NCBI GenBank assembly: GCA_902785575.1
Contig: CACZZF010000012.1
Span: 62,001-126,000 of the forward strand
Reading direction: 5' to 3'
DNA length: 64,000 bases
Origin: an uncultured Bacteroidia bacterium
Lineage (GTDB): Bacteria; Bacteroidota; Bacteroidia; Bacteroidales; UBA932
Positions 3,364 to 36,264 of this stretch are shown one piece after another (position 1 is the first letter of the stretch; the number at the start of each line of letters is the position of its first letter). The notes under the pieces are model-generated. The model was given only the letters and a program-made list of their open reading frames with translations, made no database searches and was not told the DNA's origin. The position numbers and the translations under genes are program-made.

Positions 3364-4822
3364 ACTTCTCAGGAATATTCTCAAGGACATTGGTGAGGAA
3401 CTTCCAAGTCTGGGCGACAGTGTCGATCTTGACCCTCTCATCCGGAGAATGAGGATGGACGATTGTGGGTCCTATAGAGACCATCTCCCAATTCGGGTAC
3501 TTGGCTCCCATTATGGCGCACTCAAGGCCTCCGTGGGTAGCGGTGATCTTGAGGTCCTTGCCGAAAAGTTTCTTGTAGGTGTCCTCAAGCACCTTGATCA
3601 TCGGAGTGCCAAGCTTGGGGGTCCAGCCGCTATAAGCTCCTGACATAGAATACTTGGCGCCCGCCAATTCGAAGGCATAGCGGATAGAGTCGGCAAGATA
3701 TATCTTGGCGGAGTCGATTGAGCTTCTCGTGAGAGAATGGACCGTAAGATGTCCCTTCTCAGTACGGATGATCGCCATATTGGTCGAGGTCTCGGTGAGA
3801 CCAGGGAGAGTGTCACTCATCCTGCCCACACCATGATAGCACGCGAGTATCGCCTTGAGGGCATTACCGATAACCTTCGGGCTGATGTAACGGGCGGCGG
3901 GAGCGGACTGCTTTTCATAGAACATGACAGTGTCGGGATCCGAATACTGATATTCGAACTTGTTCTCCTCGAACTTCTTCTCCACCAACGCCTTGACCTT
4001 GCGGGACGCGGCAGACGGAATCAAGATAACGGCCTCGGCCTCAAAAGGAATGGCGTTGCGGAGGGAACCACCCTTGACATCAGCCACCTTAACCTCGGGG
4101 ACTTCATCAATAACGGCCTTCAGGATACGGCAGACAATCTTGTTGGCATTACCCCTGAACAGGGAAATGTCCATTCCGGAGTGGCCACCTTTCAGACCCT
4201 TGACTGTTAGTTTGTAACCCACATATCCTTCCGGAGTCTTATATGTCCTGTAAGCGAAATCCGCGGAACCATCGATTCCTCCGGCGCAACCGGTGCAAAG
4301 CTCACCTTCTTCCTCAGAATCGAGGTTAAGGAGGATATCACCCTTCAGTATACCAGGCTTGAGGGCGTTTGCTCCGGTCATACCAGTCTCCTCGTCATAG
4401 GTGATAAGGGCCTCCAGCGGACCATGCTTCAGGGTCTTGTCCTGGAATACGGAAAGCGCCAGCGCCACTCCGATACCATTATCGGCACCGAGCGTGGTTC
4501 CCTTAGCGGCTACCCACTCTCCCTTGATCTCGGTTTCGATCGGGTCGGTGAGGAAATCATGCTTGGTGTCAGCGGTCTTCTGAGGGACCATATCCATGTG
4601 GGCCTGCATTATCACGCCCTTACGGTTCTCAAACCCAGGAGTGGCGGGAGCGGAGAAAATGATGTTGCCCGTGTCGTCACGCTTCACATCGACTCCGTTG
4701 TCCTTGCCCCACTGGAGCAAATATTCCTGTACTTTCCCCTCATGCTTTGAGGGACGGGGAATCCTCGTCAGGCCATAGAAGTTCTCCCAAACGGCCTTAG
4801 GCTCTAAATCTCTAATTGTCAT
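3362..4822 (-). CDS. pepD: Cytosolic non-specific dipeptidase (aminoacyl-histidine dipeptidase, M20C)
   Basis: PepD is a two-zinc M20-family metallopeptidase that hydrolyses Xaa-His and many other dipeptides in the cytosol. The metal and catalytic motifs are present in order: QAHMDMV (residues 73-79, zinc His and catalytic Asp), GADNGIG (bridging Asp, about 116-122), DEETGM (catalytic Glu plus zinc ligand, about 145) and LDSEEEGEL (about 172). The late zinc His lies in the C-terminal part, near IGPTIVHPHSPDER. Length (486 aa) is normal for the family. The gene is monocistronic between two palindromic repeats, and its TAG stop overlaps the downstream repeat. It could serve peptides imported by the POT transporter at 7-8.7 kb, but that link is inference. 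Confidence 0.95.
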   Translation of the reverse strand: MTIRDLEPKAVWENFYGLTRIPRPSKHEGKVQEYLLQWGKDNGVDVKRDDTGNIIFSAPATPGFENRKGVIMQAHMDMVPQKTADTKHDFLTDPIETEIKGEWVAAKGTTLGADNGIGVALALSVFQDKTLKHGPLEALITYDEETGMTGANALKPGILKGDILLNLDSEEEGELCTGCAGGIDGSADFAYRTYKTPEGYVGYKLTVKGLKGGHSGMDISLFRGNANKIVCRILKAVIDEVPEVKVADVKGGSLRNAIPFEAEAVILIPSAASRKVKALVEKKFEENKFEYQYSDPDTVMFYEKQSAPAARYISPKVIGNALKAILACYHGVGRMSDTLPGLTETSTNMAIIRTEKGHLTVHSLTRSSIDSAKIYLADSIRYAFELAGAKYSMSGAYSGWTPKLGTPMIKVLEDTYKKLFGKDLKITATHGGLECAIMGAKYPNWEMVSIGPTIVHPHSPDERVKIDTVAQTWKFLTNVLENIPEK

Positions 4823-8659: not shown

Positions 8660-9372
8660 ACTGAGGCCCCTTTCGGATGGGTGACTCCATAGCCGAAAAG
8701 GGAGAAATCACCCTTACAGGGATCACCGGGGAAGATATCATCGAACACCCCGGTGATTTCTTTTACTGTGACAATATCCTTCTGCTTACGGGACGTCAGA
8801 TCCAATGCCACCGCCTCGTCATAAACATGGACATCCAAGGGAATCAACAAGGTAGCTGGATCAGTGTTTTTCCAAAGGCCGAGGTCGACTTTGCCGTCGT
8901 TCCTGACCATCCAGCGACGCATCATGTTGATCTTCTTATTGGGCGCCTTGAGGTCGGGTTTTTGTCCGAATATTCTTACCCTGATCTCGTCTTGAGACAT
9001 CGGTTCAAGACTCGGAAGCTCCTCATACACAGTCTTCAAGCGGGAGCAAATCGCAGCAACCTCACTCCATTTGACTGTGCGGTGGATGCTGCACGGATCG
9101 CATCTCCACTCTCCTCTCATCACATAATCATAAGGTTTCCAGCCCATCTCATCGAATAGTCTCCCGCAATCCCTGACAATCATCGCCCGTCGTCCCCATG
9201 CGAAATGGGCGGCGAATATGGCCGCGACCTCAACATCCTTGACAGACCGCTCCCCTGAGCGGACAAGTTCAGAGAAACGTCGGGGAAAAGCTATCGGATC
9301 CTCCTGGAAATATTTGGGATCATTGTATGTCTCAGCCCAATTGATGAGCAGTTCTTTTGTCTTATCGTCCAT
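8656..9372 (-). CDS. TIGR02757 family protein
   Basis: This 238-aa protein matches the TIGR02757 (DUF2400) family, common in Bacteroidota and of unknown biochemical role. Recognisable blocks are YNDPKYFQEDPIAFPRRF near the N-terminus, AAIFAAHFAWGRRAMI (about residues 50-65) and the C-terminal LLIPLDVHVYDEAVALDLTSRKQ, which recalls helix-rich DNA glycosylase-like folds. The function is not established and I do not assign one. The stop overlaps the POT transporter stop on the other strand, and a terminator-like hairpin for that transcript lies inside its 3' end. Its start overlaps the 3' end of the radical SAM gene by 11 bp, which suggests one transcript. Confidence 0.85.
   Translation of the reverse strand: MDDKTKELLINWAETYNDPKYFQEDPIAFPRRFSELVRSGERSVKDVEVAAIFAAHFAWGRRAMIVRDCGRLFDEMGWKPYDYVMRGEWRCDPCSIHRTVKWSEVAAICSRLKTVYEELPSLEPMSQDEIRVRIFGQKPDLKAPNKKINMMRRWMVRNDGKVDLGLWKNTDPATLLIPLDVHVYDEAVALDLTSRKQKDIVTVKEITGVFDDIFPGDPCKGDFSLFGYGVTHPKGASV
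8722..8765 (+). terminator. Terminator-like hairpin for the POT transporter transcript, inside the opposing gene
   Basis: A perfect 10-bp stem (8722-8731 with 8748-8757, ATCACCGGGG/CCCCGGTGAT) with a 16-nt loop is followed by TTCTTTT on the plus strand. It lies 63 nt past the transporter stop but within the coding sequence of the convergent TIGR02757 gene. Confidence 0.6.
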
Positions 9373-10648
9373 TATCCATCTTGTTTTTCCTGGCCCAAGA
9401 CATAACTCCGGCCGGAGACTTTTTCAATATCAGAAGGTCTCTCATCCTCTCGAAATATGGCTGGGTGTACCTGAAATAATCTTTTAGCCCCGCACAGAGG
9501 GAGTTCTTTGCCTCACCTCCCGGTCCCTGAGCCTGTCGAAGGGGCGTCCGGTCGAAACGGTGTTTGGGGCATTCTCCCCTGCAAGCGAAATAGAAACGGC
9601 ATCTCATGCATTCGGCCGGGAGGCTTGTCCTCTTGGCCACACCGAAACGGAAACGCTTCGGATCGTCATAAATCTCAACCAGAGGCTTCTCGAGTATATT
9701 TCCAAGCAGATACTCCGGATACACGAAATGGTCGCAATTGTACACATCCCCGTTATGCTCCACAACAAGGCAATCACCACAGGTCTCGCACATCGAGCAG
9801 ACTCCAGGCTGGACCTTGCAATACTGGGCCAGAGTGGCGTCAAACATCTGAACGAAATACTCCCCGACATCGCTGACGACCCACTCATCAAAAACATCCT
9901 TGAGGAACTGCCCGTAACCCTTTGCGCTGACGCTCCAGGGAGCCAGCCGGGCGCCCTCGGTCTCAGGCGAGACAATAACAGGCCTCCTGAAATCCGGCCG
10001 GTCCACGACATGTTCCACAGCCGGAAGGAATTGCATATAATGGCTCCCGACGGATTTGAAGAATGAATATATTTCCTTACCCCTACCTTCCGACAGGGAA
10101 CTCACTACGCTAAGGGTGTTGAACTCGACTCCGAATCTACGGAGCAAGTCCACTGAGGCCATCACCTTTTCCCAAGTCGGCCGACCTTGTTTGTCCAGCC
10201 GGAAACCGTCGTGGATATCCTGCGGTCCATCCAACGAAACCCCGACAAGGAAGTTGTTGAGCCAGAAGAACTCACACCATCTCTCATCAATCAGCGTGGC
10301 GTTCGTCTGGATAGTGTTGACAATCTTCTTGCCATCAGCATATTCACGCTGCCAGGCCATGGCTTTCTGATAGAAGTCAAGTCCTAAAAGGAGAGGTTCC
10401 CCTCCATGCCAGCAAAAAGTAACTTCAGGGACAGCGTTTGCGGTTATATACTGTCGGATGTATTCCCGGAGCAACTCATCGCTCATCACAGCCTCTTTTC
10501 CTCCATAACGCAAGGCCTTATCGAGGTAATAACAATACGAGCAATCCAGGTTGCACGCGGACCCGGCCGGTTTCACCATAGTGGAGAAAGCGGTAGGCCT
10601 CAACTCTTTACGAGCATCATCGAGAGTAATTGTCCTTGAATTGTCCAT
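9362..10648 (-). CDS. Anaerobic sulfatase-maturating enzyme (radical SAM/SPASM)
   Basis: This radical SAM enzyme belongs to the anSME/AslB family, which converts the active-site Cys or Ser of sulfatases to formylglycine. The SAM cluster motif CNLDCSYC (CxxxCxxC) lies about 32 residues from the start, followed by the WHGGEPLL segment. The C-terminal SPASM cysteines are visible (CSMCETCGDC, CDHFVYPEYLLGN, CMRCRFYFACRGECP). I choose ATG 10648 (MDNSRTITLDD), giving about 428 aa, rather than the GTG 17 codons upstream: a TAAATTTG promoter box lies at 10676-10669, between the two starts. An insertion (TPLRQAQGPGG) near the C-terminus coincides with a dispersed repeat. No sulfatase gene is in this window, so its partner is elsewhere. 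Confidence 0.9.
   Translation of the reverse strand: MDNSRTITLDDARKELRPTAFSTMVKPAGSACNLDCSYCYYLDKALRYGGKEAVMSDELLREYIRQYITANAVPEVTFCWHGGEPLLLGLDFYQKAMAWQREYADGKKIVNTIQTNATLIDERWCEFFWLNNFLVGVSLDGPQDIHDGFRLDKQGRPTWEKVMASVDLLRRFGVEFNTLSVVSSLSEGRGKEIYSFFKSVGSHYMQFLPAVEHVVDRPDFRRPVIVSPETEGARLAPWSVSAKGYGQFLKDVFDEWVVSDVGEYFVQMFDATLAQYCKVQPGVCSMCETCGDCLVVEHNGDVYNCDHFVYPEYLLGNILEKPLVEIYDDPKRFRFGVAKRTSLPAECMRCRFYFACRGECPKHRFDRTPLRQAQGPGGEAKNSLCAGLKDYFRYTQPYFERMRDLLILKKSPAGVMSWARKNKMDNGR
9522..9544. repeat. Dispersed repeat inside the radical SAM gene
   Basis: This short repeat unit (GGTCCCTGAGCCTGTCG then AAGGGG) lies inside the coding sequence and is read in frame as PLRQAQGP on the minus strand. It shares CTGAGCCTG(T/C)CGA(A) with the tandem array at 29694-29784. 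The translated peptide is a common in-frame signature of such repeats. Confidence 0.7.
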
Positions 10649-10668
10649 CGGGTATATGTCTCTTACGG

Positions 10669-10676
10669 CAAATTTA
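10669..10676 (-). promoter_or_regulatory. -7 box of the radical SAM operon
   Basis: TAAATTTG on the minus strand (10676-10669) matches TAnnTTTG. A clear TTTG -33 box was not found at the expected distance. The predicted start near 10662 supports translation from the ATG at 10648. Confidence 0.5.
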
Positions 10677-10692
10677 GTATTTTCGCGTAAAT

Positions 10693-11313
10693 ATGCCACG
10701 ACTCTTCATCATATCCGGTTGCAACGGCTCCGGAAAAACCACGGCCACTTATGCCGTGCTCCCCGGCCTGCTCGGATGCAGCGAATTTGTCAACTCTGAT
10801 GAGTTCGCCAAGAGCTTGTCGCCGTTCAGCCCTGAAAAGGCTTCCGTAGCCGCCAGCCGCTACATGTTGCTGAAAATGAGGCGCCTGCTGGATAGGAAGG
10901 AAGATTTCGCCATCGAAACCACCTTGGCCACAAGGTCGATGATCAAGATGATCAAAGACGCCCAGAAAGAGGGCTATTATGTCACGATCCTTTACCTTTG
11001 GTTGAACTCTCCTGACCTGGCGGTGGCCAGAGTGAAGGCTAGGGTGACCGCAGGTGGCCACAACATTAAGGAGGAGACTGTAAGGAGGCGCTACAGCGTC
11101 GGGTTGCACTACCTTTTCAGGGACTTCATGCCGATCTGTGACAGATGGATCCTTTGCGATAACTCTGATGATAACCTAAGGTTGGTCGCGGAGAGTTCCG
11201 GTAGCGGGATCACGGTGCGTGATCCTGAGACTTTCGGCAAGATCAAGACGATGAATTCGATTTATGAGAAAGAGTTGAGAGAAGAGGAAAAGAGGAAGAA
11301 TGTACAACAATGA
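10693..11313 (+). CDS. Zeta-toxin-like P-loop kinase
   Basis: This 206-aa P-loop protein resembles the zeta toxin family, kinases that phosphorylate UDP-activated amino sugars, and stand-alone zeta-like ATPases. The Walker A motif GCNGSGKTT is at residues 9-17. NSDEF (residues 34-38) resembles the acidic catalytic segment, FAIETTLATRS (about 72-82) matches the conserved ETT region, and RRRYSVGL is the basic lid. No epsilon-type antitoxin gene is adjacent, so a toxin role is not supported; many such proteins are housekeeping or of unknown role. Its 3' end overlaps the tldD start by 14 bp, so the two are translationally coupled. It diverges from the radical SAM gene with a 44-bp gap. Confidence 0.75.
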   Translation: MPRLFIISGCNGSGKTTATYAVLPGLLGCSEFVNSDEFAKSLSPFSPEKASVAASRYMLLKMRRLLDRKEDFAIETTLATRSMIKMIKDAQKEGYYVTILYLWLNSPDLAVARVKARVTAGGHNIKEETVRRRYSVGLHYLFRDFMPICDRWILCDNSDDNLRLVAESSGSGITVRDPETFGKIKTMNSIYEKELREEEKRKNVQQ

Positions 11314-14268: not shown

Positions 14269-14799
14269 ATGAAAGCAGAAAAGAACAAAGTCGTCAGCTT
14301 GACCTATGAGCTGATCGTCGATGGGGCTCTTGCCGACAAGGCCGATGAGACCCGTCCCCTAGAGTACATCCACGGTACCGGGATGCTCCTTCCCAAGTTT
14401 GAAAGCGAGGTGGAAGGGAAAGAGCCCGGTGAGGAATTCGCCTTCACTCTTACTCCGGAGGAGGGCTACGGTACATTCGATGAGACCAGACTTATCGATC
14501 TCCCGATGGAGGCCTTCATGATGGATGGTAAGGTCAGGGATGATCTTCTTGTCGTAGGCAGGATGATCCCCATGATGAGCGATTCAGGCCAGGTTGTCAA
14601 CGGCATCGTCCATGAAGTGACTGACAATAAGGTCACTATGAATTTCAACCACCCGATGGCCGGCAAGACCTTGAACTTCACCGGCAAGGTCATCGCCGTC
14701 CGCGAGGCCACTGAGAAAGAGCTCGAGAAAGGCCATCCTTGCAAGCATCACAGTGACGGCGATTGCTGCCATCACGGTGACTGCCACAAAGATTCCTAA
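14269..14799 (+). CDS. slyD: FKBP-type peptidyl-prolyl isomerase, SlyD-like
   Basis: This 176-aa cytosolic prolyl isomerase and chaperone is of the SlyD type. The FKBP domain is split by an insert-in-flap domain as in SlyD: VSLTYELIVDG at the N-terminus, PLEYIHGTGMLLPKFESEVEGKE around residues 27-50, then the flap domain and a return to FNHPMAGKTLNFTGKVIAVR near residue 125. The C-terminal tail is rich in His and Cys (HPCKHHSDGDCCHHGDC), typical of metal-binding SlyD tails linked to nickel handling. No hydrogenase or urease genes are in the window. It may share the upstream tldD-pmbA transcript or have its own promoter; its stop overlaps the end of the phosphatase gene on the other strand by 4 bp. 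Confidence 0.93.
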   Translation: MKAEKNKVVSLTYELIVDGALADKADETRPLEYIHGTGMLLPKFESEVEGKEPGEEFAFTLTPEEGYGTFDETRLIDLPMEAFMMDGKVRDDLLVVGRMIPMMSDSGQVVNGIVHEVTDNKVTMNFNHPMAGKTLNFTGKVIAVREATEKELEKGHPCKHHSDGDCCHHGDCHKDS

Positions 14800-16922
14800 T
14801 AGCTAGAATCGAGGATGTGGATGTGGGTCACGACTCGTCTTTCATTGTCGTGCTTGAAAGTATTTGAACCGGAGGGATAATTCACCACATTGGTCTTCTC
14901 GGAGCCTTGGCCCTTGACACACATCGTGGACGATCCACCACCATCAAGATTCATAGCCTGCTGGGGATGGAAGTGATTCTCTATGAATGATGTAAGCTCA
15001 AATGCGTTCATACCTTCAGCGATTCCTGGCCTGCGCCCGTCTACGACAATCAGAATAAGGTGATTATCCTCCGTCGTGGCGACCGCGGTCCTTGGATGAC
15101 GCACACCCTGGTGGCGGATAGGATCCTCATAATTGAGTTTGCCGACCTGCTCATCTGAGAGACTCGTGGCAGCGAAATATTTCCCGACCGGGATATAGCC
15201 GTCAATAAGCATCGGAGAGCACCCGAAAACATCCGGATAGCTGATGGATGAGAATGCCTCCCTGCGCTCCTGCAGAGTCATATCCTTGCCCGTGTACTCT
15301 ATTTTGACATTTCTTCCGTCGGTACTGATCGAGCAGTCAGTCTTCCACTGCGGAGGAGTCCCGATAACCGGAACGACATCGCTGTCGATGTTGTTGTAAG
15401 TCTTGCCGTCGACCTTGATAAATGATGACACTCTCTCATAAGTGGCATTGATTGTCGCGACAGCCCCCGCCTTCTTGAAAGCGTCGGAGGTGGCCATCCG
15501 GCCTTCTTCGATACCGAACTTGACTGAGTAGCGGGGATTATTCATATCCACATCCACCGCATAGACTAGCTGATGGACGCCAGAGATCGGTTCCACTCCG
15601 CTGTAACGCTTATACACAAGACCATCCTGGACATTCTCAACCTGCCACCCTCCCCTATTGAAGTCGGGGCCTTTCTCAATGGATTCCATATAATGCGCGC
15701 GAAGGTCTGACCAGTGATAGAACGGCCATCTGTCGGTATTCACTCCGGCTATCCGGCATTCGTTCTCATTAAGAAGAACCTTGACCAGGATGTCTTTGGA
15801 GCCCTTTTTCTTGAAAAACACCATCTGGATGTTAGCGCCCATGGGGCAGGCGTTCTCCAGCATCCAATGTGACTCGAGATTATCCGTGTCAGCGACAGGA
15901 GAACAGCAGCCCTCGATGTCCATCTCAACCGCCAACGGGGCGATCTGCGTGTCGTGGCCGTACCTCAACGTGGCCTTGTACTCTCCTCCCGCAAGGGCTT
16001 TGTCAGCGTGCTCTATCATGTGTCTCAGAATAACTGAAGCTTCGTTGCGGACGATCTCACCATATTCCTCGGAAGGGCCAATGGAGAAGTACTCCCTCAG
16101 GTTATTCGACTTCCAAGTGCTATAGAAATCATTGTAGGTAAAATACTTGTACAGGTCAACTCCCAATTCGTCATTCAGGGCGTTGTCGATGGTGAGCTCC
16201 CAAAGCCACCTCACCATCCGCTTTCTCACGACCGGGTCAAGGTACTTGTTCTTATCCGCCCCCCTGTAAGTGAATATCTTGTCGAGCAGGGCCTCCCCCG
16301 CTTCTTCGTCAATCAACTTGTCGCTAAGAGTGCGGCCGTATTCGTGGGAAGCCGCCGAGACAGGATAGGAATTGAACACTTCAGCCTGGATCTTCGTGCC
16401 GCAATGGCGGTCGTACCTGACCTTGGGATTCTTGGCCGTGATGGCGTCAAGGCTGTACGCCATACTCATTATACATCTCTGGACCGTGGATGTGTAAACA
16501 TCTATCTTGCAATCGTTTCCTGTGAATATCTCCGGATAGCGGGCAATGGTTCTCTCCATAATGTGGCGATGCTCCCGACCACCCCTTGGAAGAAGCATTC
16601 CAAGATTGCCATCGGCGTCAGTGGCTATCTTTCGCACATCCTCAAGCAAAGCTTTGCCAGTCTCGGTCAATGCTCCTGCCCTACCCGCTGCCTCAAGGAT
16701 CTCTAAAGGTTTGGTGTAGGTGTCCCCGGAGATGAGGTAACGGCTCCCGTGCCTTGCGAAATTAGCCAGATACACAGGTTTATACCCGGCCGGAGCCTTT
16801 GTCCAATGAGTCTCCACATCCGGATAAGGCTTATAAGACCAGGCCAGGGACTTGATGTCCTGTGAGGATAAGCAAAAAGGAAGCGATACGCAGATCGCGA
16901 TGACTAAAACAATTCGTTTCAT
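14796..16922 (-). CDS. Histidine phosphatase fused to a NAGPA-type phosphodiester glycosidase (exported)
   Basis: This 708-aa secreted protein has two enzyme domains. A signal peptide (about residues 1-20) is followed by a histidine acid phosphatase domain: RHGSR at residues 57-61 (phospho-accepting His) and GHD at about 322-324 (proton donor), a layout like phytases and multiple inositol polyphosphate phosphatases. From about residue 435 to the end comes a phosphodiester glycosidase (NAGPA/DUF2233) domain with RHPRTAVATTE, VVDGRRPG and the hallmark LDGGGSSTM. The usual NGGF motif is replaced by NATY near residue 492. It follows the EEP lipoprotein gene by 3 nt, behind susC-susD. It probably removes or exposes phosphate groups on a glycan or polyol; the exact substrate is inference. 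Confidence 0.85.
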   Translation of the reverse strand: MKRIVLVIAICVSLPFCLSSQDIKSLAWSYKPYPDVETHWTKAPAGYKPVYLANFARHGSRYLISGDTYTKPLEILEAAGRAGALTETGKALLEDVRKIATDADGNLGMLLPRGGREHRHIMERTIARYPEIFTGNDCKIDVYTSTVQRCIMSMAYSLDAITAKNPKVRYDRHCGTKIQAEVFNSYPVSAASHEYGRTLSDKLIDEEAGEALLDKIFTYRGADKNKYLDPVVRKRMVRWLWELTIDNALNDELGVDLYKYFTYNDFYSTWKSNNLREYFSIGPSEEYGEIVRNEASVILRHMIEHADKALAGGEYKATLRYGHDTQIAPLAVEMDIEGCCSPVADTDNLESHWMLENACPMGANIQMVFFKKKGSKDILVKVLLNENECRIAGVNTDRWPFYHWSDLRAHYMESIEKGPDFNRGGWQVENVQDGLVYKRYSGVEPISGVHQLVYAVDVDMNNPRYSVKFGIEEGRMATSDAFKKAGAVATINATYERVSSFIKVDGKTYNNIDSDVVPVIGTPPQWKTDCSISTDGRNVKIEYTGKDMTLQERREAFSSISYPDVFGCSPMLIDGYIPVGKYFAATSLSDEQVGKLNYEDPIRHQGVRHPRTAVATTEDNHLILIVVDGRRPGIAEGMNAFELTSFIENHFHPQQAMNLDGGGSSTMCVKGQGSEKTNVVNYPSGSNTFKHDNERRVVTHIHILDSSY

Positions 16923-16925
16923 TTG

Positions 16926-17852
16926 TCAGAATGTGAATATGGCGTAAATAGGGTAATGATCTGATATATAATCTATATTCTTCCACCCGTCCCGGACGGT
17001 CTTGTATTCCTTAGCATTAAGCCCCACGCTATAGAAGATGTGGTCGATTATGGAGCTGCTGCCTCTGGCCGAGTTAGAGAAAGCGTTATAAGTGGCGTAG
17101 CTATCCGAGACCGGGGCGGTCTTCCGGGCGCTTTTCATCATCAAGTGAAGAGGAGCGAAGATAGAGTCATCCTCCGTAGAGTTGAAATCAGCGGTCAGAA
17201 CGCAAGGAAGCCCATCCGGGTTAAGCTCGCCCATCTTCCTGACTATCAATTTCACACTCTCCGAACGCGCCACTGTTCCCTTATGGTCGAGGTGGGTATT
17301 GAAATACATGATTTCCTTCCCAAGGCGCTTAATGCGCACCCTTGCCCAAGTGCAAGTACGGTTACAGGCGGCATCCCACCCTCTGGAGACCCTATCAGGT
17401 GAATCACTCAGCCAGAACGTACCCCAATTCACAATAGTCACAGAATCTTTCAGATAGAAGATAGCCATCATCTCCCCTTTCTCATTGCCATCATCTCTTC
17501 CGACACCGATGGCGTCGTATACGGGCACATTGACCACTATGTCGTGACGCTGCTCCGCAAGACACTCCTGAACACCCATCAACAAGGGGCGCTCGGTTTT
17601 CAGCATCTCATAGACTCCTTCCCTGCGCTTGGCCCAGCCATTACCGGAGGAGTTGTCGGAAGAATTCTGGTAACGAACGTTGAAAGACATCAGTTTGAAA
17701 CCGTCGGAAGGGACAGTGGAGACGTAATCTGTGCCAAACTCAATGTCACTGATGTATTCGGACAGATCTATCTTCCCTCTATTCTTCCCGCAACCGGCCG
17801 CAAGTAAGGCGACCGCCACAAAAGACATAGCCAACTTCAGAAAAACTCGCAT
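16926..17852 (-). CDS. Endonuclease/exonuclease/phosphatase-family lipoprotein
   Basis: This lipoprotein of about 308 aa has the EEP fold shared by DNase I, sphingomyelinases and inositol phosphatases. I choose ATG 17852 (MRVFLKLAMSF) because it begins a clean lipoprotein signal with lipobox LLAAGC. The upstream ATG would put the signal behind 19 extra residues and lies too near the promoter box. The catalytic set is complete: SFNVRYQN (Asn), GVQECL (Glu), FNTHLDHKG (His), LTADFNSTED (Asp, Asn) and ISDHYPIYA (His). Such proteins in SusC/D loci are predicted to act on phosphodiesters at the cell surface. It has its own promoter behind the susD terminator and is 3 nt ahead of the phosphatase fusion gene. 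Confidence 0.87.
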   Translation of the reverse strand: MRVFLKLAMSFVAVALLAAGCGKNRGKIDLSEYISDIEFGTDYVSTVPSDGFKLMSFNVRYQNSSDNSSGNGWAKRREGVYEMLKTERPLLMGVQECLAEQRHDIVVNVPVYDAIGVGRDDGNEKGEMMAIFYLKDSVTIVNWGTFWLSDSPDRVSRGWDAACNRTCTWARVRIKRLGKEIMYFNTHLDHKGTVARSESVKLIVRKMGELNPDGLPCVLTADFNSTEDDSIFAPLHLMMKSARKTAPVSDSYATYNAFSNSARGSSSIIDHIFYSVGLNAKEYKTVRDGWKNIDYISDHYPIYAIFTF

Positions 17853-17876
17853 CGGATAATGATTGATCACTGAGTA

Positions 17877-17910
17877 CAAATATAATAAAAAAAGAAGAAG
17901 TCCCGTCAAA
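17877..17910 (-). promoter_or_regulatory. Promoter of the EEP-phosphatase unit, overlapping the susD terminator
   Basis: TATATTTG on the minus strand (17884-17877) matches the -7 consensus. A TTTG (17910-17907) lies 22 nt upstream, slightly longer than usual, and falls inside the terminator hairpin. Predicted start near 17870. Confidence 0.5.
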
Positions 17911-17933
17911 TGATTCTCTGACGGAACTTCTTC
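17887..17933 (-). terminator. Intrinsic terminator behind susD
   Basis: Arms 17919-17933 and 17894-17908 (GAAGAAGT.CCGTCA type) pair over 15 positions with one mismatch and a 10-nt loop. Seven T (17893-17887) follow on the minus strand, 16 nt past the SusD stop. It separates the susC-susD message from the enzyme genes. Confidence 0.85.
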
Positions 17934-17948
17934 ATTCTCAACGAAATA

Positions 17949-19778
17949 CTACCAGCCCGGATTCTGTTTCAGATTCGGGTTCTTCTGAATGACAGTCTCG
18001 GGGATCGGATAGAGATACTGACGCTGAGGCCAATCCCTGTCCTTGACATACTTCATGATGTAACCACCTTCCGGCTGGGCGACAAGGTTGACATCATTCT
18101 TGGAATCGCCCTTGCCAACCTTGACTCCGATACCCTTGTACTCATCGGGGATGTCACCGTATGTGAAGTACACATCGTTGGTGCCATCCTCGTTGATATC
18201 CAAAGGCTCATCCATGGCGGGGACAAAGATTCCCTCCCAAGGATCGTCTACCCAAAGGTTGCAGCAGGCCCAACGTTTGAGGTCGGTCATACGCAGACCC
18301 TCGTAAGCAAGCTCAATGGCCCTCTCACGGCGGATCTCAAGGATAACCGGATCGGTCACGCCAGGATAGTAACTGGCGATGTAAGGCTCGACCTCCGTAG
18401 GTTTGGAAGTAAGAGTTCCTGTCTGAGGAGTTCCTCCTGTGATACCAGCCCTTTTACGAAGGGTTCCGATTGTCTGCTCCCAGTCTCCGTCGGTAAGGGT
18501 ACCCAACTCAGCCTTGGCCTCAGCATAGTTGAGCAGCATCTCGGCGTAGCGGATCAGAGGCTCGTCGTTGCCGTTCGAGCTGTGGTCATCGTAGAGGATG
18601 TCATCGATAACCCACTTCGTGACCTGGTATCCACTCAGTGTGTGGCCGGTGAAGTTCGCCGCGGTGGCCTCGTAGGCGCCTAGAGCGTTCTTGCGGGTAT
18701 AGTCCCAGCCGCGGATGGTCTCGTTCAGACGGGTGTCGCGACCGGTGGTCTCCTGCTTGAATGTCTTGAAAGTGCCGTCCTCGTTCTTCTCGTTGTACGG
18801 TGTACCATCACTGTTCAGGTAGGTCTTCGCGAATTTGCGGGACATACCGAGGTGAGGACCGTAGGTCGAGGAGTTGTACCACCAGTTCTGCTCACCGATG
18901 CAAAGGGTCTCATCAGCCACAATGGCGAGCATGACCTCCTGGGTGACAGTGTTGTCGGCGATGAACAACTGACGGTAAGCGCCGCGGCCATTGGCGTACT
19001 TGGTGCCAGTGTAAATGCTGTAGACACCAGAATCCATCACCTTCTTGGCGGCGTCAGCGGCCAGGGCATAGAGATCGTTAGGCTTATACTGCGTGCAGCC
19101 AGTACGGGCGATGTCAAGCTGGTCGCCGGCATGGTACTTACGCCAAGCCGCCTCGAAGAGACAGATCCTGGACTTGAGGGCCATAGCCGTCCACTTGTTC
19201 ACCAAAGAGGAATTCAAAGTCGCCTTGCTCTCGATGATATTGTCGAAAGCGAAGTCAAGATCCTCGATTATATGCCCGATTATGACGTCACGAGTGTCCT
19301 GAGTATTCATAAGGCGCTCATCCTCAGGTGAGTTGAACACCCAGTCAATCCACGGGACAGGGCCGTACGTGACAAGTTTGTCGAAATAGAAATAAGCGCG
19401 GAACAGACGAGCGATGCCGTTGTAGTTGTCACGCGTTTTTTGGGGGACATTCTCGTTGACATTCTTCTCAAGGAAGAAGTTGATGTTCCTAAGAGCAGAC
19501 CAGGACCAGCTGGTGGCTGAGGAGACTGTGTAGGCTCCGACCTCCATGCCACCCACCGAGTTCTTCGGACCATAGTCTGTAGTTGAATCGAGTGTGTACA
19601 CTCCGGTCCTGCTCGGCAGATTCTCATAGAAACCGTACATATAGGTCTGCAAACCGCCTTCAGAAGAGAACATCATGTCCACGGAAGCGGACGATTTCGG
19701 CTCCTCGTTGTAATCGCAGGATACTGAAAACGCGCCGACTGCCAATGCCAAAGTAATAAAAGTCAATATCTTTTTCAT
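17949..19778 (-). CDS. SusD/RagB-like surface nutrient-binding lipoprotein
   Basis: This 609-aa RagB/SusD family lipoprotein is the surface lid that binds a glycan or other nutrient over the SusC channel. A lipoprotein signal is visible (TLALAVGAFSVSC, Cys near residue 21), followed by DYNEEP. Family blocks include RAYFYFDKLVTYGPVPWIDW (about residues 128-147), RYAEMLLNYAEAKAELG (about 400) and EIRRERAIELAYEGLRMTDLKR near residue 495. The C-terminus NLKQNPGW is typical. It lies 13 nt behind susC and is followed by a strong terminator. The substrate is not predictable from sequence; the neighbours suggest a phosphorylated one. Confidence 0.95.
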   Translation of the reverse strand: MKKILTFITLALAVGAFSVSCDYNEEPKSSASVDMMFSSEGGLQTYMYGFYENLPSRTGVYTLDSTTDYGPKNSVGGMEVGAYTVSSATSWSWSALRNINFFLEKNVNENVPQKTRDNYNGIARLFRAYFYFDKLVTYGPVPWIDWVFNSPEDERLMNTQDTRDVIIGHIIEDLDFAFDNIIESKATLNSSLVNKWTAMALKSRICLFEAAWRKYHAGDQLDIARTGCTQYKPNDLYALAADAAKKVMDSGVYSIYTGTKYANGRGAYRQLFIADNTVTQEVMLAIVADETLCIGEQNWWYNSSTYGPHLGMSRKFAKTYLNSDGTPYNEKNEDGTFKTFKQETTGRDTRLNETIRGWDYTRKNALGAYEATAANFTGHTLSGYQVTKWVIDDILYDDHSSNGNDEPLIRYAEMLLNYAEAKAELGTLTDGDWEQTIGTLRKRAGITGGTPQTGTLTSKPTEVEPYIASYYPGVTDPVILEIRRERAIELAYEGLRMTDLKRWACCNLWVDDPWEGIFVPAMDEPLDINEDGTNDVYFTYGDIPDEYKGIGVKVGKGDSKNDVNLVAQPEGGYIMKYVKDRDWPQRQYLYPIPETVIQKNPNLKQNPGW

Positions 19779-19791
19779 AATGCCTGCATTT

Positions 19792-22700
19792 TTAGAAGGT
19801 TATGTTGATACCGAAGGTGTAGGTCTTCAACATCGGGTAGTTGTAGGCGTCACCTGAGCCTGTCGTAAGATCAGGATCGGAGGTGCCGATATTGGAGACG
19901 TTGATGTCCTTGGTAAGCTTGTAGAGAGGAGACCAGGTGAAGAGGTTCTCACCGGAGAAGTAGACGCTCACGCCTTTCATTCCGACAGACTCAACCCAGT
20001 TCTTGGGAAGCCTGTAACCCAGCTGGACGTTCTTCAGACGGCAATATGCGACGCTCTGGAGGTAACGTGTGCTGGCGTTGTTGGTACCTTTGTAGAACGG
20101 GGCGTAGTAACCAGTGTAACGGGGCAGGAACGCATTGGGATTGTCCTCGGTCCAGTAGTTGCCCAGATGCCACTTGGGAAGGTTGTTGTAAGGACGGTTG
20201 TACTGTCCCCAGAACATGGACGCCTCATTTGAGGGGAACCAGTCCTGTTTGCCCACTCCCTGGAAGAACGCGGAAGCCCAGATGCCATTCCAGTCAATCG
20301 AGAGATTGAAACTGTACATGAAGCGGGGATTCTCGTTACCGATGATCTTACGGTCACCCGGATCACCGACCTGGTTCTTGCCACGGTCGATGTAACCGTT
20401 GCCGTTGAGGTCCTCGAACTTGATGTCACCGGGATAGATGGTGTAGGACTTGGAGGTCTGCATCAGAGGGTTGTAGTACTTCTGACCGGCATCCCTAACC
20501 TTTACCATTGCGGCATCGATTTCACTCTGGGTCTGCCAGAGACCGTTGGAGGTGAAGCCCCAGAGCTCACCCATCCTCATGCCCTCGTAGTAGTTGCCCG
20601 CGAGGGACTGGTTGGCCGCGTTGACAAGGTCTTTATTGGCGTTGTTGTACTTGTCTATGATTGAATAATAGTCATAGAGGGAAGCCTTGACGCTGTATAT
20701 GAAAGGCTTGCTGGCAAGCTCGAAATCATCGTGCCAGGCGACGCTGACCTCGAATCCACGGGTGGACATGTCAGCGTAGTTGCCCTTAGGCGAAGAAGCA
20801 CCGAACACATCAGGCACGGTAGGTCCCGCGACGATCATATTGATGGTCTTACGCAGGTAGGCATCGGCTGTGACGGTGAGGCGGCTGTTGAGGAAGCCGG
20901 CGTCCAAACCCACATCATAGGTGGTGGCGGTCTCCCAAGTCAAGTCATCAGGAAGGGCGCCAGGAGCGGTGGTATACCTCTGCTTGACACCGTTGAGAAG
21001 ACGGCCCGAGGTGGAGACGCTCATCGTCTGCTTGTACTGGTAATTGCCAAGACCTGAGGCGTTTCCGAGGGAACCGTAAGAGGCGCGGAGCTTAAGGTTG
21101 GAGATGAAGGCGGGGTTGACGTGCCACCAAGGCTCCTGGGAGATCCTCCAACCGGCGGAGACCGACGGGAAGAAGGCCCAGCGGTGGTGCGACGGGAACC
21201 TGGAGGAGCCGTCGTAACGGCCGTTGACCTCGAGAAGGTACCTCTCGTCGAAGATGTAGTTGAACCTGAAGAAGGCTCCGCCGAACTGATAGGCGGACCA
21301 GCTGGAAGTGGTTGACTTGTTGTCAGTTCCGAGCGTCAGGTTAAGGTTCTCGATGTCAGGGGTCAGGAAGTCGGTATTAGCGGCATAGACATTCTTATGC
21401 TGACTTTGCTCGTAGTTCCAACCGACCATTCCCTTGACATAATGCTTGCCGAAGGTGTTCTCATACTCGGTGTAGATGTTGGTCGCAATGTACCTGGTCC
21501 ATTCATTGGTCTCGGAGAACTTGTTTCCCGCAGGGTCCTTGATGTACTCCAAGATGCTGTTGCCGTTGGCGTCGACTGACTTGGCGTAAGGGGTACGGGC
21601 CTCTTTCTTGGTGCGCTCGTAGGTGGTCTTCCTATAGGTGAAGTCTCCCTTGAGACGGAGGGTGTTGTTCAGCCACTGGGCCACGAAACCGGTCGTGTTC
21701 TTCAGGACCTCGTTCACGGTTTTGATTCCGCTCTGACCATAAATGAGGTCAGCGGTGGAATAAACTCCAGAGTAAGTGAGTGTCCCGTCAGGGTTGAGCA
21801 GAGGCTCGGAAGGGTGACCCTCGTCGGCGATATTACGGTAAACGACTCCAGAGCCCTCTGAATAAGTGATAGGGTTGTAGTATCTGTTATAACCGTAGTC
21901 CAGGTTGTTCGTGATCTTCAACCATGGAAGGGCCTGGTATCCCATCTTCGCCCTAAGGTTGTAGGAGTTGTAACGGTCAGTCTGCTTGTCGCTGTTGAAG
22001 AGTCCGTCGAAATGATGGTAACGTCCTGAGAGATAGTAGTCGAACTTGCCGTCACTTCCGGAGATTGAGATGTTGTGGTTCATGCTCGGGACAGTGTCCT
22101 TGTAGAGGGCGGAGAAATAATCGACCTCTTTCGGGAAATAGACATAACGTCCTTTCGTCGTTCCCATCGAGCCATCGGAGATGATGGTACCGAAGTCTCC
22201 CGCATCGTGTCTTCTCTTGTATTCCTCAAGCCAAGCAAGTGAGAACTGCTGGGTCTTGTTGATACCCGAAGGCTTCGCTCCCTCGTTGTAAGAGGAGTAG
22301 GCCTTGTAGAAGTGCTCGGCCCAGACATAACCGTCAGTCACGACATCCGGCTTGTTCTGGGGAGCCTGAATCGAGAAATTGGCCGTGTAGTTGATCTGCG
22401 GCTTGCCTTTGGAGGCTTCCTTGGTCGTGATGAGGACCACTCCGTAAGGGGCTCGGGCTCCGTAGATAGCCGAGGCCGCGGCGTCCTTCAAGACGGAGAC
22501 GGTCTCGATATCATTCGGGTTCAGCATGGAAGGGTCACCCTCGACGCCGTCGATAAGGACCAGGGCGCTACCGCCGTTGATGGAACCGGTACCACGGACG
22601 TTGAAGTCAGCGGTACGGCCAGGCTTACCGTCGGCCAGGGTAATGTTAAGGTTCGGGACAGCACCTTCGAGCATCTGGGTCACGTTGGTGGCAGCGCGGC

Positions 22701-23103
22701 CCTCGAAGACATCACTTGTGACCTGCTCCACGGCACCGGTCAGGTTGACCTTTTTCTGTGTACCGTAACCGACGACGACCGTCTCAGTCAGGGAGAATGA
22801 ATCATCCTTCAGGACGACCACAATATTCCCTTGTGAGGCGGGAACACTCACCCGTTCTGTCTGATAGCCGAGGCAACTGACCTCGAGAATCACATCCTGA
22901 GCGGGAACATTGATTGAGAATTCTCCGTTAGTCCCGGTGGTGTTACCGTTCCGGGTCCCCTCTTGGATGACCGCGGCCCCGACTACCGGAACTTTACCGG
23001 AGTCGACAACCTTTCCGGAGATGGTCCTTGTCTGGGCCAAAGCTCCGAACTCAGCCATCAGGAGGAGCGACAGAGTCAATGCGCAAAGTTTGAAAAATCT
23101 CAT
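19792..23103 (-). CDS. SusC/RagA-family TonB-linked outer-membrane transporter
   Basis: This 1103-aa TonB-dependent transporter forms the channel of a SusC/SusD nutrient uptake pair. In order: a signal peptide (residues 1-23); a carboxypeptidase-regulatory-like domain (RTISGKVVDSGKVPVVGAAV onward, to about residue 95); a TonB-box and plug start ETVVVGYGTQKKVNLTGA (about 106-123); plug sequence SALVLIDGVEGDPSMLNPND with SVLKDAAASAIYGARAPYGV (about 180-225); and a long beta-barrel ending in aromatic TFGINITF. Length is usual for the family. A susC start remnant with a similar leader lies 300 bp upstream. No sigma/anti-sigma pair or hybrid two-component regulator is next to it, so how it is controlled is unclear. 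Confidence 0.96.
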   Translation of the reverse strand: MRFFKLCALTLSLLLMAEFGALAQTRTISGKVVDSGKVPVVGAAVIQEGTRNGNTTGTNGEFSINVPAQDVILEVSCLGYQTERVSVPASQGNIVVVLKDDSFSLTETVVVGYGTQKKVNLTGAVEQVTSDVFEGRAATNVTQMLEGAVPNLNITLADGKPGRTADFNVRGTGSINGGSALVLIDGVEGDPSMLNPNDIETVSVLKDAAASAIYGARAPYGVVLITTKEASKGKPQINYTANFSIQAPQNKPDVVTDGYVWAEHFYKAYSSYNEGAKPSGINKTQQFSLAWLEEYKRRHDAGDFGTIISDGSMGTTKGRYVYFPKEVDYFSALYKDTVPSMNHNISISGSDGKFDYYLSGRYHHFDGLFNSDKQTDRYNSYNLRAKMGYQALPWLKITNNLDYGYNRYYNPITYSEGSGVVYRNIADEGHPSEPLLNPDGTLTYSGVYSTADLIYGQSGIKTVNEVLKNTTGFVAQWLNNTLRLKGDFTYRKTTYERTKKEARTPYAKSVDANGNSILEYIKDPAGNKFSETNEWTRYIATNIYTEYENTFGKHYVKGMVGWNYEQSQHKNVYAANTDFLTPDIENLNLTLGTDNKSTTSSWSAYQFGGAFFRFNYIFDERYLLEVNGRYDGSSRFPSHHRWAFFPSVSAGWRISQEPWWHVNPAFISNLKLRASYGSLGNASGLGNYQYKQTMSVSTSGRLLNGVKQRYTTAPGALPDDLTWETATTYDVGLDAGFLNSRLTVTADAYLRKTINMIVAGPTVPDVFGASSPKGNYADMSTRGFEVSVAWHDDFELASKPFIYSVKASLYDYYSIIDKYNNANKDLVNAANQSLAGNYYEGMRMGELWGFTSNGLWQTQSEIDAAMVKVRDAGQKYYNPLMQTSKSYTIYPGDIKFEDLNGNGYIDRGKNQVGDPGDRKIIGNENPRFMYSFNLSIDWNGIWASAFFQGVGKQDWFPSNEASMFWGQYNRPYNNLPKWHLGNYWTEDNPNAFLPRYTGYYAPFYKGTNNASTRYLQSVAYCRLKNVQLGYRLPKNWVESVGMKGVSVYFSGENLFTWSPLYKLTKDINVSNIGTSDPDLTTGSGDAYNYPMLKTYTFGINITF

Positions 23104-23271: not shown

Positions 23272-23403
23272 TTAATTATCCACTACCGGCGCGCCATTGG
23301 CGTCTTGCACCACACCGGTCACGGTTCTGTTCTGCGCCAGCAGGCCGAACGACGCGACCATTGACAGGAACAGTGTCAAGATCAGAGATCGCTTGTGAAA
23401 CAT
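23272..23403 (-). pseudogene. 43-codon SusC N-terminal remnant
   Basis: ATG 23403 opens a 43-aa frame ending TAA at 23272. It begins MFHKRSLILTLFLSMVASFG, a good signal peptide ending LLAQ, and continues RTVTGVVQDANGAPVVDN. That is the first strand of the carboxypeptidase-regulatory-like domain found at the N-terminus of SusC proteins, and it stops there. The full susC downstream has the matching RTISGKVVDSGKVPVVGAA. It is therefore most likely what is left of a second susC gene, or of a duplication of the susC start. A short functional peptide cannot be excluded because the leader is also preserved. Confidence 0.7.
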
Positions 23404-28280: not shown

Positions 28281-29663
28281 ATGAGCTCATTTCTAGCACC
28301 TCCTCCCTTCAAAGAGGAAATGACCGGCCCGGAGGTCGATTCCATCTACAAGAAAAAACGCTTGCAGGTATTCCTGGGCATATTCATAGGCTACGCCGGC
28401 TTTTACATCGTCCGCAAGAATTTCTCGATGGCCATCCCCGGACTCGAGGCTCTCGGCTTCACCACTGAGGAACTCGCCATCGTGCTGTCGATGAACGCTA
28501 TAGCTTACGGATTCTCGAAGTTCCTGATGGCCAGCATCTCGGACCGTAGCGACGCCCGGAAGTTCTTGCCCCTCGGCCTGGTCTTGGCCGCCCTCTCAAT
28601 GGCGTTCATGATCGTTCCGGTGCAGTGGCTCGGAATCGAGCACAAGTTCTGGGCGATAGCGCTCATGTCATTGCTCAACTTCCTTGTGGGTTGGTTCAAC
28701 GGAATGGGCTGGCCTCCATGCGGAAGGGTCATGACACGATGGTTCTCCATTAAGGAACGCGGCACTTGGATGTCAGTCTGGAATTGCGCCCACAACGTCG
28801 GAGGCGCTTTGGTCGGACCTATGGCCACTTACGGCGCGGTTTGGTTCGGATCGTGGTTCTACGGTGCCCATACCGATCATTATTTCCTGATCGGATCTTT
28901 CGTGTTCCCGGCCGCCGTGGCCATCCTCATAGCTATTATCGCATACTGCATGATCCGTGACACACCTCAGTCACTCGGACTCCCCTCCATCGAGAAATGG
29001 TCCGGCCATGCGGCCAAGCATTACACTGTCAAGAGCGAGGAAGTCATGTCTGTCAAGGATATATTCAGGACAGTCCTTTCCAACAAACTGCTCTGGTATA
29101 TCGCTTTCGCCAACGCCTTCGTCTACATGGTCCGTTATGGTTGTCTTGACTGGGCACCGAAGATATTAACTGACAAAGGAATAGACCTAACCAGCACCGG
29201 CTGGGCGTACTTCGCCTACGAGTTCGCCGCCATCCCTGGAACTTTGTTCTGCGGCTGGCTCAGCGACAAAGTTTTCAACGGAAGAAGAGCGCTCCCTACT
29301 ATGCTGTTCATGGCCCTCGTGGGAGTCGCCATATTCATTTATTGGAAAAACCTTGAAAATCTGACCGTCATCATCTCTTGCCTGATAGCCATCGGCTTCT
29401 TCATCTACGGCCCTGTCATGCTGATTGGTGTGCAAGCCCTTGACCTCGCCCCGAAGAACGCCGCCGGCACCGCCGCCGGACTTACCGGATTCCTAGGTTA
29501 TGTGCTGGGCACGGCGATTCTGGCCAACATCCTGGTGGGCTTCACGATGAGACGAGCCGGATTGGACACCGTGTTCATCCTTTTCATAGCCGCCTGCGTC
29601 ATCTCGATCCTGTTGATGGGTCTGACTTACAAGGCAGAGCAGTATCTCGCGAAGAAAGAGTAG
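28281..29663 (+). CDS. MFS organophosphate:phosphate antiporter-like transporter (GlpT/UhpC type)
   Basis: This 460-aa major facilitator transporter is of the organophosphate:phosphate antiporter family (GlpT, UhpT, UhpC). Family features are FIGYAGFYIVRKNFSMAIPG in helix 1, an MFS loop SISDRSDARKFLPLG after helix 2, and the GlpT-like stretch NGMGWPPCGRVMTRWFSIKERG (about residues 150-171). About 12 helices are visible. Such proteins swap glycerol-3-phosphate or hexose phosphates for phosphate. That would fit the phosphoesterases of the SusC/SusD locus 5 kb away, but this is inference. The stop codon TAG is joined to a palindromic repeat array. Confidence 0.88.
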   Translation: MSSFLAPPPFKEEMTGPEVDSIYKKKRLQVFLGIFIGYAGFYIVRKNFSMAIPGLEALGFTTEELAIVLSMNAIAYGFSKFLMASISDRSDARKFLPLGLVLAALSMAFMIVPVQWLGIEHKFWAIALMSLLNFLVGWFNGMGWPPCGRVMTRWFSIKERGTWMSVWNCAHNVGGALVGPMATYGAVWFGSWFYGAHTDHYFLIGSFVFPAAVAILIAIIAYCMIRDTPQSLGLPSIEKWSGHAAKHYTVKSEEVMSVKDIFRTVLSNKLLWYIAFANAFVYMVRYGCLDWAPKILTDKGIDLTSTGWAYFAYEFAAIPGTLFCGWLSDKVFNGRRALPTMLFMALVGVAIFIYWKNLENLTVIISCLIAIGFFIYGPVMLIGVQALDLAPKNAAGTAAGLTGFLGYVLGTAILANILVGFTMRRAGLDTVFILFIAACVISILLMGLTYKAEQYLAKKE

Positions 29664-35900: not shown

Positions 35901-36264
35901 ACCGCCTGGCGGTGGACTTCATGATAGAGAATGCCTCAGGAAGAATCTCCTCCAGGGTCTTCTCAATCTGCTCATCCTCCTCTTTCACAAGTTTGTCTGA
36001 CTCGGTGGCGAGATTCTCCTTCTCGGAAACGGGAATATCTTCCTCCAGTTTCGCCTTTATCTCGGCGATCCTCGCCTCGAAAGGCGCCTCGCATTCGCGA
36101 AGCTTATCCTTCAGGGCCTGGGATCTTGCCCTCAACTCGTCATCTGAAAGAGCGTCTATCGCGGGATAAGCCGCCAGGACCTTGTCCAGGACCGGCTTGA
36201 TGAGCTTCATGTCACGGTCGGCTTTCGAGCCGAATATCTTTCTTAATAAGCCTGATACAGCCAT
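32959..36264 (-). CDS. secA: Preprotein translocase ATPase SecA
   Basis: SecA (1101 aa) is the ATPase that drives proteins through SecYEG. Walker A appears in [20 protein letters not shown] (about residue 205). [20 protein letters not shown] is the Walker B/DEAD region, and [13 protein letters not shown] with [25 protein letters not shown] (about 690-730) forms the second nucleotide fold. The C-terminal SEC-C zinc tail [14 protein letters not shown] (near 1085-1098) is intact. The greater length compared with E. coli (901 aa) is normal for Bacteroidota and comes mostly from insertions in the N-terminal third. The start at 36264 lies just behind a -7 box and a 13-bp dyad. Confidence 0.97.

Follow-up and report, generated by a model that had tools for sequence, protein, structure and literature searches.

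The SusC/SusD locus and its four genes

The window analyzed here is a stretch of 64,000 nucleotides (C12:62001-126000 of G000) from a rumen-type Bacteroidales genome of 3.05 Mb and 98.8% completeness. Its minus strand harbors, between positions 14796 and 23103 in whole-window numbering, the genes for SusC, SusD, an EEP-fold lipoprotein and a predicted exported protein in which a histidine acid phosphatase (HAP) domain is joined to a NAGPA-type phosphodiester glycosidase domain, in that order. This arrangement had been claimed by the first-pass annotation, together with a complete catalytic set in the EEP protein; profile matches and coordinates bore out the four genes, as listed below, and the EEP residues are likewise intact.

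19792..23103, minus strand: SusC-type TonB-dependent outer-membrane transporter, 1103 aa (TIGR04056 E 5e-244; TIGR04057 signature; Pfam plug and barrel)
17949..19778, minus strand: SusD-type surface lipoprotein, 609 aa (PF07980 E 3e-45)
16926..17852, minus strand (open reading frame opens at 17909): EEP-fold lipoprotein, likely a sugar phosphatase, 308 aa from the ATG at 17852 (PF03372 E 2e-12)
14796..16922, minus strand: predicted exported HAP-NAGPA fusion, 708 aa (PF00328 and PF09992 in one open reading frame; full-length orthologues in other genomes)
15678..16847, minus strand: HAP (MINPP-like) domain of the fusion, about residues 26-415 (PDB 7r5y E 3e-52; Foldseek 7r5y E 3e-27; invariant RHGSR and HD)
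14808..15665, minus strand: NAGPA domain region of the fusion, about residues 420-705 (PF09992 E 6e-23; invariant HPR, VDGR and DGGGS)
23272..23403, minus strand: remnant of another SusC N-terminus, 43 codons, upstream of SusC (113-aa version in L005)

The SusC and SusD genes are separated by 13 bases and the EEP and fusion genes by 3 bases. Since SusC and SusD are adjacent on one strand and exceed the cut-offs of TIGR04056 and PF07980, the locus is classed as a SusC/SusD-type utilization locus. Its enzymes are HAP, NAGPA and EEP only, and none of the classical linked carbohydrate-active enzymes (glycoside hydrolase, polysaccharide lyase, carbohydrate esterase or sulfatase) is found in it. Loci fetched for comparison from the same genome and from other genomes carry L-numbers (such as L005 and L109), the near-identical and related loci coming from rumen, goat, buffalo and yak assemblies, and the genome numbers given for searches represent samples of the genus, order and phylum.

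The HAP-NAGPA fusion protein

The HAP half of the fusion matches PF00328 above cut-off (E 9e-9, residues 56-385) and carries the phosphatase motifs RHGSR (57-61) and HD (323-324), which places it in histidine phosphatase branch 2 with an RHGxR motif. The NAGPA half matches PF09992 (residues 502-703; 82.3 bits against a cut-off of 25) and shows the HPR/DGR/DGGGS set of that family as HPR (609-611), VDGR (627-630) and DGGGS (660-664). All five motifs are preserved without change in 18 fusions, whose identity falls as low as 35%. The NAGPA half gives weak matches to the PDB entries 6pki and 6pkg; in the predicted structure the phosphatase half is usable and the NAGPA half has a pLDDT under 50, a poor model on which no fold claim is based. 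A signal peptide without a conserved lipobox suggests that the fusion is exported to the periplasm or to vesicles, as was described for BtMinpp (PMC3969271).

The closest solved relatives of the HAP half, both by sequence and by Foldseek, are MINPPs, with 7r5y as the best match, and this kinship suits a locus for the uptake of inositol phosphates. Here, SusC/D would import phytate or its lower forms, the MINPP-like domain would strip the phosphates, mainly as a phosphate supply, and NAGPA and EEP would handle other phosphoesters. Plant feed is rich in phytate, and in three further families of Bacteroidales a HAP gene standing by itself comes immediately after SusC-SusD (L087, L092 and L095). 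The usual proton-donor triplet of MINPPs, HAE (PMC7762957, PMC3969271), is absent and replaced by HD in the fusions and in most stand-alone relatives read, but this does not exclude phytate because 7r5y, titled as a MINPP of Prevotella sp. CAG:617 and solved with an InsP6 analogue, likewise has HD. R183 of BtMinpp aligns with Asn in the fusion in our reading of the alignment, but 7r5y lacks this arginine as well. The inositol-catabolism check of the genome gave no iolE-type gene above the cut-off; this makes inositol improbable as a carbon source and argues against that use only. The phytate reading leaves NAGPA and its repeated fusion to HAP unexplained and is considered unlikely beside the preferred reading of a sugar-1-phosphate-linked glycan, although inositol phosphate is to be taken seriously as a competing substrate.

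The EEP lipoprotein

The EEP protein exhibits the lipobox LLAAGC, with the lipoprotein start probably at 17852, and nine of nine catalytic residues are intact (N77, E115, H206, D208, D241, N243, D289, D317 and H318). In the PDB search its best solved relatives were 3mpr (E 2e-49) and 4c1r (E 3e-49), and with the EEP fold and complete metal and catalytic residues it falls into the 4c1r group. Going by its PDB name, 'mannosyl-6-phosphatase', we take 4c1r to be a mannosyl-6-phosphatase; the group also includes the uncharacterised 3mpr and 3g6s. The protein is likely a sugar phosphatase. A nuclease with a nucleic-acid substrate was set aside, as it would leave NAGPA and HAP without a role and the PDB relatives are not nucleases by name.

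General phosphate scavenging under phosphate limitation, with SusC/D bringing in unspecific or unrelated material, would suit a locus in which every enzyme would release phosphate, and purple acid phosphatase or GDPD genes do adjoin some fusions (L018, L107 and L105). On the other hand, a SusC/D pair of its own and a phosphodiester glycosidase in the locus imply a specific sugar-bearing substrate, and in the PDB search the EEP protein groups with the 3mpr/4c1r enzymes and not with nucleases. Scavenging is therefore regarded as the least probable of the readings considered.

Distribution and repeated origin of the fusion

Full-length fusions were recovered with the window protein in 15 of 101 genus genomes and in none of the samples of 295 order and 395 phylum genomes, where at the chosen cut-offs the phosphatase half alone was matched, plus one isolated NAGPA match. 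A further set in the same genus was uncovered by a search with the NAGPA domain of a GH92 fusion. Three types were thus distinguished: F1, the window type; F2, represented by L104-L109; and G, the third set. The trees of the two halves disagree, as the HAP domains of F1 and F2 lie far apart, their NAGPA domains group together, and the NAGPA domain of G belongs to another lineage. Topology tests rejected the F1 and F2 HAP domains as one clade (approximately unbiased test, p 0.00024), the NAGPA domains of all fusions as one clade (p 2.8e-6) and the F2 and G NAGPA domains as one clade (p 6e-42), and a single origin of the fusions was discarded on these grounds. The simplest account is that HAP and NAGPA were joined at least three times in the genus, one of these joinings possibly being a domain swap. 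Repeated joining of the same activities predicts one substrate and two sequential cuts, and it is good evidence, at the level of sequence, that both activities act one after the other on one substrate; this is the part that should surprise a specialist.

Two further proteins, encoded beside HAP-NAGPA fusions at L190:11909-14701 (930 aa) and L195:4747-7875 (1042 aa), carry NAGPA at their end, preceded by a long N-terminal part without a clear enzyme domain.

Gene order and the SusC-SusD-EEP cassette

Among the loci fetched with the fusion protein, the fusion usually occupies one chromosomal site, between the GT2-TrkA block and FKBP-PmbA-TldD. Conservation of the four-gene order in other Bacteroidales, the check proposed in the first-pass annotation, was found in part. 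The order SusC-SusD-EEP-fusion recurs in close rumen relatives only, namely in L005 (a near-identical strain), L011, L013 and L016; L012, L014 and L100 contain two SusC-SusD pairs with EEP between them; L015 reads fusion-SusC-SusD-EEP, with another SusC/D type (41% and 33% identity) and another EEP subfamily; and L006, L009 and L010 carry the fusion alone at the same site, without SusC/D. The two EEP subfamilies are 16-20% identical and were recruited separately beside fusions. Because the site carries the fusion with varied or no SusC/D, the SusC/D/EEP part behaves, as far as these comparisons reach, as an exchangeable cassette next to a resident fusion gene.

The cassette was also followed at other sites. 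With an E-value of 1e-100 or better as the criterion, 30/101 genus genomes hold relatives of the window SusD. Eighteen such SusC/D loci outside the window site were fetched, and at 17 of them an EEP gene is close by, in many cases separated from SusC/D by a PKD/propeller-type lipoprotein. In the window's own genome, by contrast, 16 full SusC genes were counted and only 2 have EEP within about 10 kb, the window locus being one of the two. EEP linkage thus characterizes this SusC/D clade and does not extend to SusC genes at large; the counts are given without a p-value, as loci of the same genus are not fully independent.

These distributions bear on the possibility of two unrelated units, namely a resident fusion at a fixed site and an inserted mobile SusC-SusD-EEP cassette with its own substrate. 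The solitary fusions at the site, the many loci with SusC-SusD-EEP and no fusion, and the two cassette types at one site (window and L015) all fit such a history. Chance would not be expected, however, to place both cassette types next to the fusion, nor to yield the independent SusC/D-NAGPA-fusion(-EEP) loci at other sites (L109/L110, L191 and L193). Two unrelated units are accordingly rated improbable, and a shared, sugar-1-phosphate-linked substrate is preferred.

Other domain arrangements were seen near such cassettes. GH97, GDSL esterase and EEP domains are combined in one protein encoded close to a SusC-SusD-EEP locus (L148:17464-19998), and proteins of about 1150 aa with an EEP domain at the C-terminal end only were detected at loci with several EEP genes (L151:13186-16629, L152:2448-5909 and L154:11193-14645), about 880 residues of the L151 protein being without a Pfam match when scanned.

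Other SusC/SusD loci with phosphate-cleaving enzymes

Several further loci combine SusC-SusD with the same enzyme types: L109/L110 from two genomes (SusC-SusD-BT_3987-type lipoprotein-GLUG protein-NAGPA-GDSL-HAP-fusion-EEP); L191 (SusC-SusD-GLUG protein-NAGPA-fusion); L193 (SusC-SusD-unassigned protein-NAGPA-two further proteins-fusion); and L196 (SusC-SusD-NAGPA-NAGPA). No recognised glycoside hydrolase was found by Pfam inside the blocks of L109/L110, L191, L193, L196 and L015, of whose flanking genes only some were scanned. Judged from gene content, SusC/D loci whose only enzymes cleave phosphate bonds are a recurrent pattern.

Genomic surroundings of the locus

The scan of the surroundings took in ten more genes, from 8.6 to 28.3 kb, which encode a TIGR02757 protein, an anaerobic sulfatase maturase, a P-loop protein, TldD, PmbA, an FKBP isomerase, a glycosyltransferase, TrkA, a DUF1232-like protein and an ABC-F protein, several of these names resting on sub-threshold matches or on reading of the sequence by eye. 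No glycoside hydrolase or sulfatase occurs among these ten, in agreement with the earlier statement that none adjoins the locus. The GlpT-like antiporter 5 kb away, which had been offered as a supporting clue, fared differently. The gene at 28281-29663 is GlpT-type but scores 523.8, below the glpT equivalog cut-off of 632.55, and the GT2-TrkA-DUF1232-ABC-F-GlpT-GrpE block is conserved with and without SusC/D, so that its nearness is not evidence of a common pathway and it was dropped as a member of the locus.

The stub at 23272-23403 represents a different SusC N-terminus with an intact signal peptide. In L005 it is longer (3366-3707, 113 aa, 51% identical to the SusC N-terminus) and rejoins the same downstream DNA. 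It is likely the scar of a deleted tandem SusC-SusD pair, such as the tandem pairs seen in L011, L012 and L014.

The anaerobic sulfatase maturase (9362-10699, minus strand, TIGR03942 over cut-off) lies roughly 4 kb away from the locus and has no sulfatase adjoining it, and a candidate second SusC at 32959-36264 of the window proved to be SecA. Elsewhere in the same genome, a 1374-aa open reading frame at L197:11924-16048 (C14), beginning MMKKILGLDLGTTSVGWAM, looks Cas9-like by eye only.

Mannose-related genes in the genome

About 11 GH92 genes over cut-off were counted in the genome, none of them in the locus, and the endo-alpha-1,6-mannanase family GH76 gave one match, under cut-off, in this 98.8% complete assembly. 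One GH92 domain is fused to NAGPA (L022:6995-10015, C14); full-length GH92-NAGPA proteins occur in 5/101 genus genomes, all of which also have F1 HAP-NAGPA fusions, a co-occurrence that may reflect shared descent. The gene lies next to those for an outer-membrane barrel protein, PF25183 (L022:1210-4617), and a BACON-domain protein (L022:4635-6983), a pair that had been considered as SusC/SusD and was rejected as such. The genome also encodes an EEP domain fused to GDPD (L040:3896-5620, C8), in a cluster with GH92 genes and alkaline phosphatase.

Proposed function

The uptake of a phosphorylated substrate had been proposed in the first-pass annotation, and it gains from the repeated independent HAP-NAGPA fusions and from the separate SusC/D loci with the same enzyme types, while losing GlpT as a support. 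Of the substrates listed there, it is a sugar-1-phosphate diester, either phosphomannan-like or in the form of a hexose-phosphate polymer, that the NAGPA half indicates, and the phosphatase half alone would point to inositol phosphate. The mammalian NAGPA, known as the uncovering enzyme, cuts the sugar side of a sugar-1-phosphodiester and leaves a phosphomonoester. We propose, at roughly even odds, that the window harbors a SusC/D import locus for a glycan with phosphodiester links or caps at the anomeric carbon (sugar-1-phosphate-6-sugar). SusD would capture the glycan and SusC would import it; in the periplasm the NAGPA domain would cut the sugar-1-phosphate bond, freeing one sugar and leaving the phosphate on the next, and the HAP domain of the same protein together with the EEP phosphatase would strip the exposed phosphate. 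For a capped side chain, as in yeast phosphomannan, one round would suffice; on a hexose-phosphate polymer the NAGPA and HAP steps would alternate, and such alternation would favor their physical joining. The sequences, on which all of these conclusions are based, show the genes themselves, their intact catalytic motifs, the repeated independent fusion of HAP with NAGPA and the recurrence of such enzymes beside SusC/D; the sugar-1-phosphate substrate, the cell location and the order of events are what we infer in this reading.

Several points weigh against this proposal: MINPP phytases are the nearest kin of the HAP half; cleavage of a sugar-1-phosphodiester by the bacterial NAGPA domain is inferred from family and motifs; the fusion stands alone in L006, L009 and L010, and the window SusC/D clade is mostly without it; all HAP-NAGPA fusions belong to one genus, so that their associations share history; and, in the absence of a GH76 over cut-off, classical yeast mannan degradation is incomplete.

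Among specific substrates, the leading candidate is a mannose phosphodiester, for example yeast or fungal phosphomannan, a tentative choice that we hold to be rather doubtful. Mannose is favored because the nearest named structure of the EEP protein is 4c1r and because some 11 GH92 genes are present in the genome, one of them fused to NAGPA. It is possible, at well below even chances, that a hitherto unrecognised class of SusC/D loci exists for sugar-1-phosphate-diester glycans (hexose-phosphate polymers or phosphomannans), served by a repeatedly fused two-stroke enzyme in which NAGPA would remove a sugar and expose the phosphate, and HAP would remove the phosphate and expose the next diester.

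Yeasts and fungi, protozoa and many bacteria carry phosphodiester-linked glycans, and all of these organisms are present in the rumen. Interpretation of foraging loci in gut Bacteroidota usually relies on their glycoside hydrolases, lyases and sulfatases, and loci acting on phosphate bonds only would be missed or left unassigned. A natural uncapping and phosphatase enzyme is also a possible tool for the analysis of phosphorylated glycans.

Comparison with known systems

No paper on a phosphodiester glycosidase in a Bacteroides or mannan context was found in the open-access literature, which does not prove that the system is undescribed. The window locus resembles the SusC/SusD polysaccharide utilization loci of Bacteroidota in its tight run of a SusC-SusD pair, an exported enzyme and a surface lipoprotein enzyme, but differs from them in having no glycoside hydrolase, lyase or sulfatase, all its enzymes being predicted to act on phosphate bonds. 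With the yeast mannan loci of Bacteroides and 4c1r it shares an EEP protein of the same group and a genome with many GH92 genes; unlike those loci, it has its GH92 genes elsewhere and no GH76 over cut-off, and the HAP-NAGPA fusion is added. The MINPPs and histidine acid phytases (BtMinpp, 4fdt; 7r5y) belong to the same RHGxR fold family and are the closest solved relatives of the phosphatase half, whereas the window protein has HD in place of HAE, is fused to NAGPA and is linked to SusC/D and EEP genes.

The mammalian uncovering enzyme (6pki, 6pkg) is alike in NAGPA family membership and in the DGGGS motif, although the matches are weak. In the mannose-6-phosphate processing of mammals, NAGPA uncaps, and the histidine acid phosphatase ACP2 can dephosphorylate mannose-6-phosphate; in contrast to this lysosomal route, the window has both predicted activities in one bacterial protein. 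The GH92-NAGPA fusion of L022 offers a parallel within the same genome, as NAGPA is there too joined to another catalytic domain and encoded beside an outer-membrane barrel protein, but its partner is a domain of an alpha-mannosidase family, its NAGPA belongs to another lineage and its barrel is not SusC.

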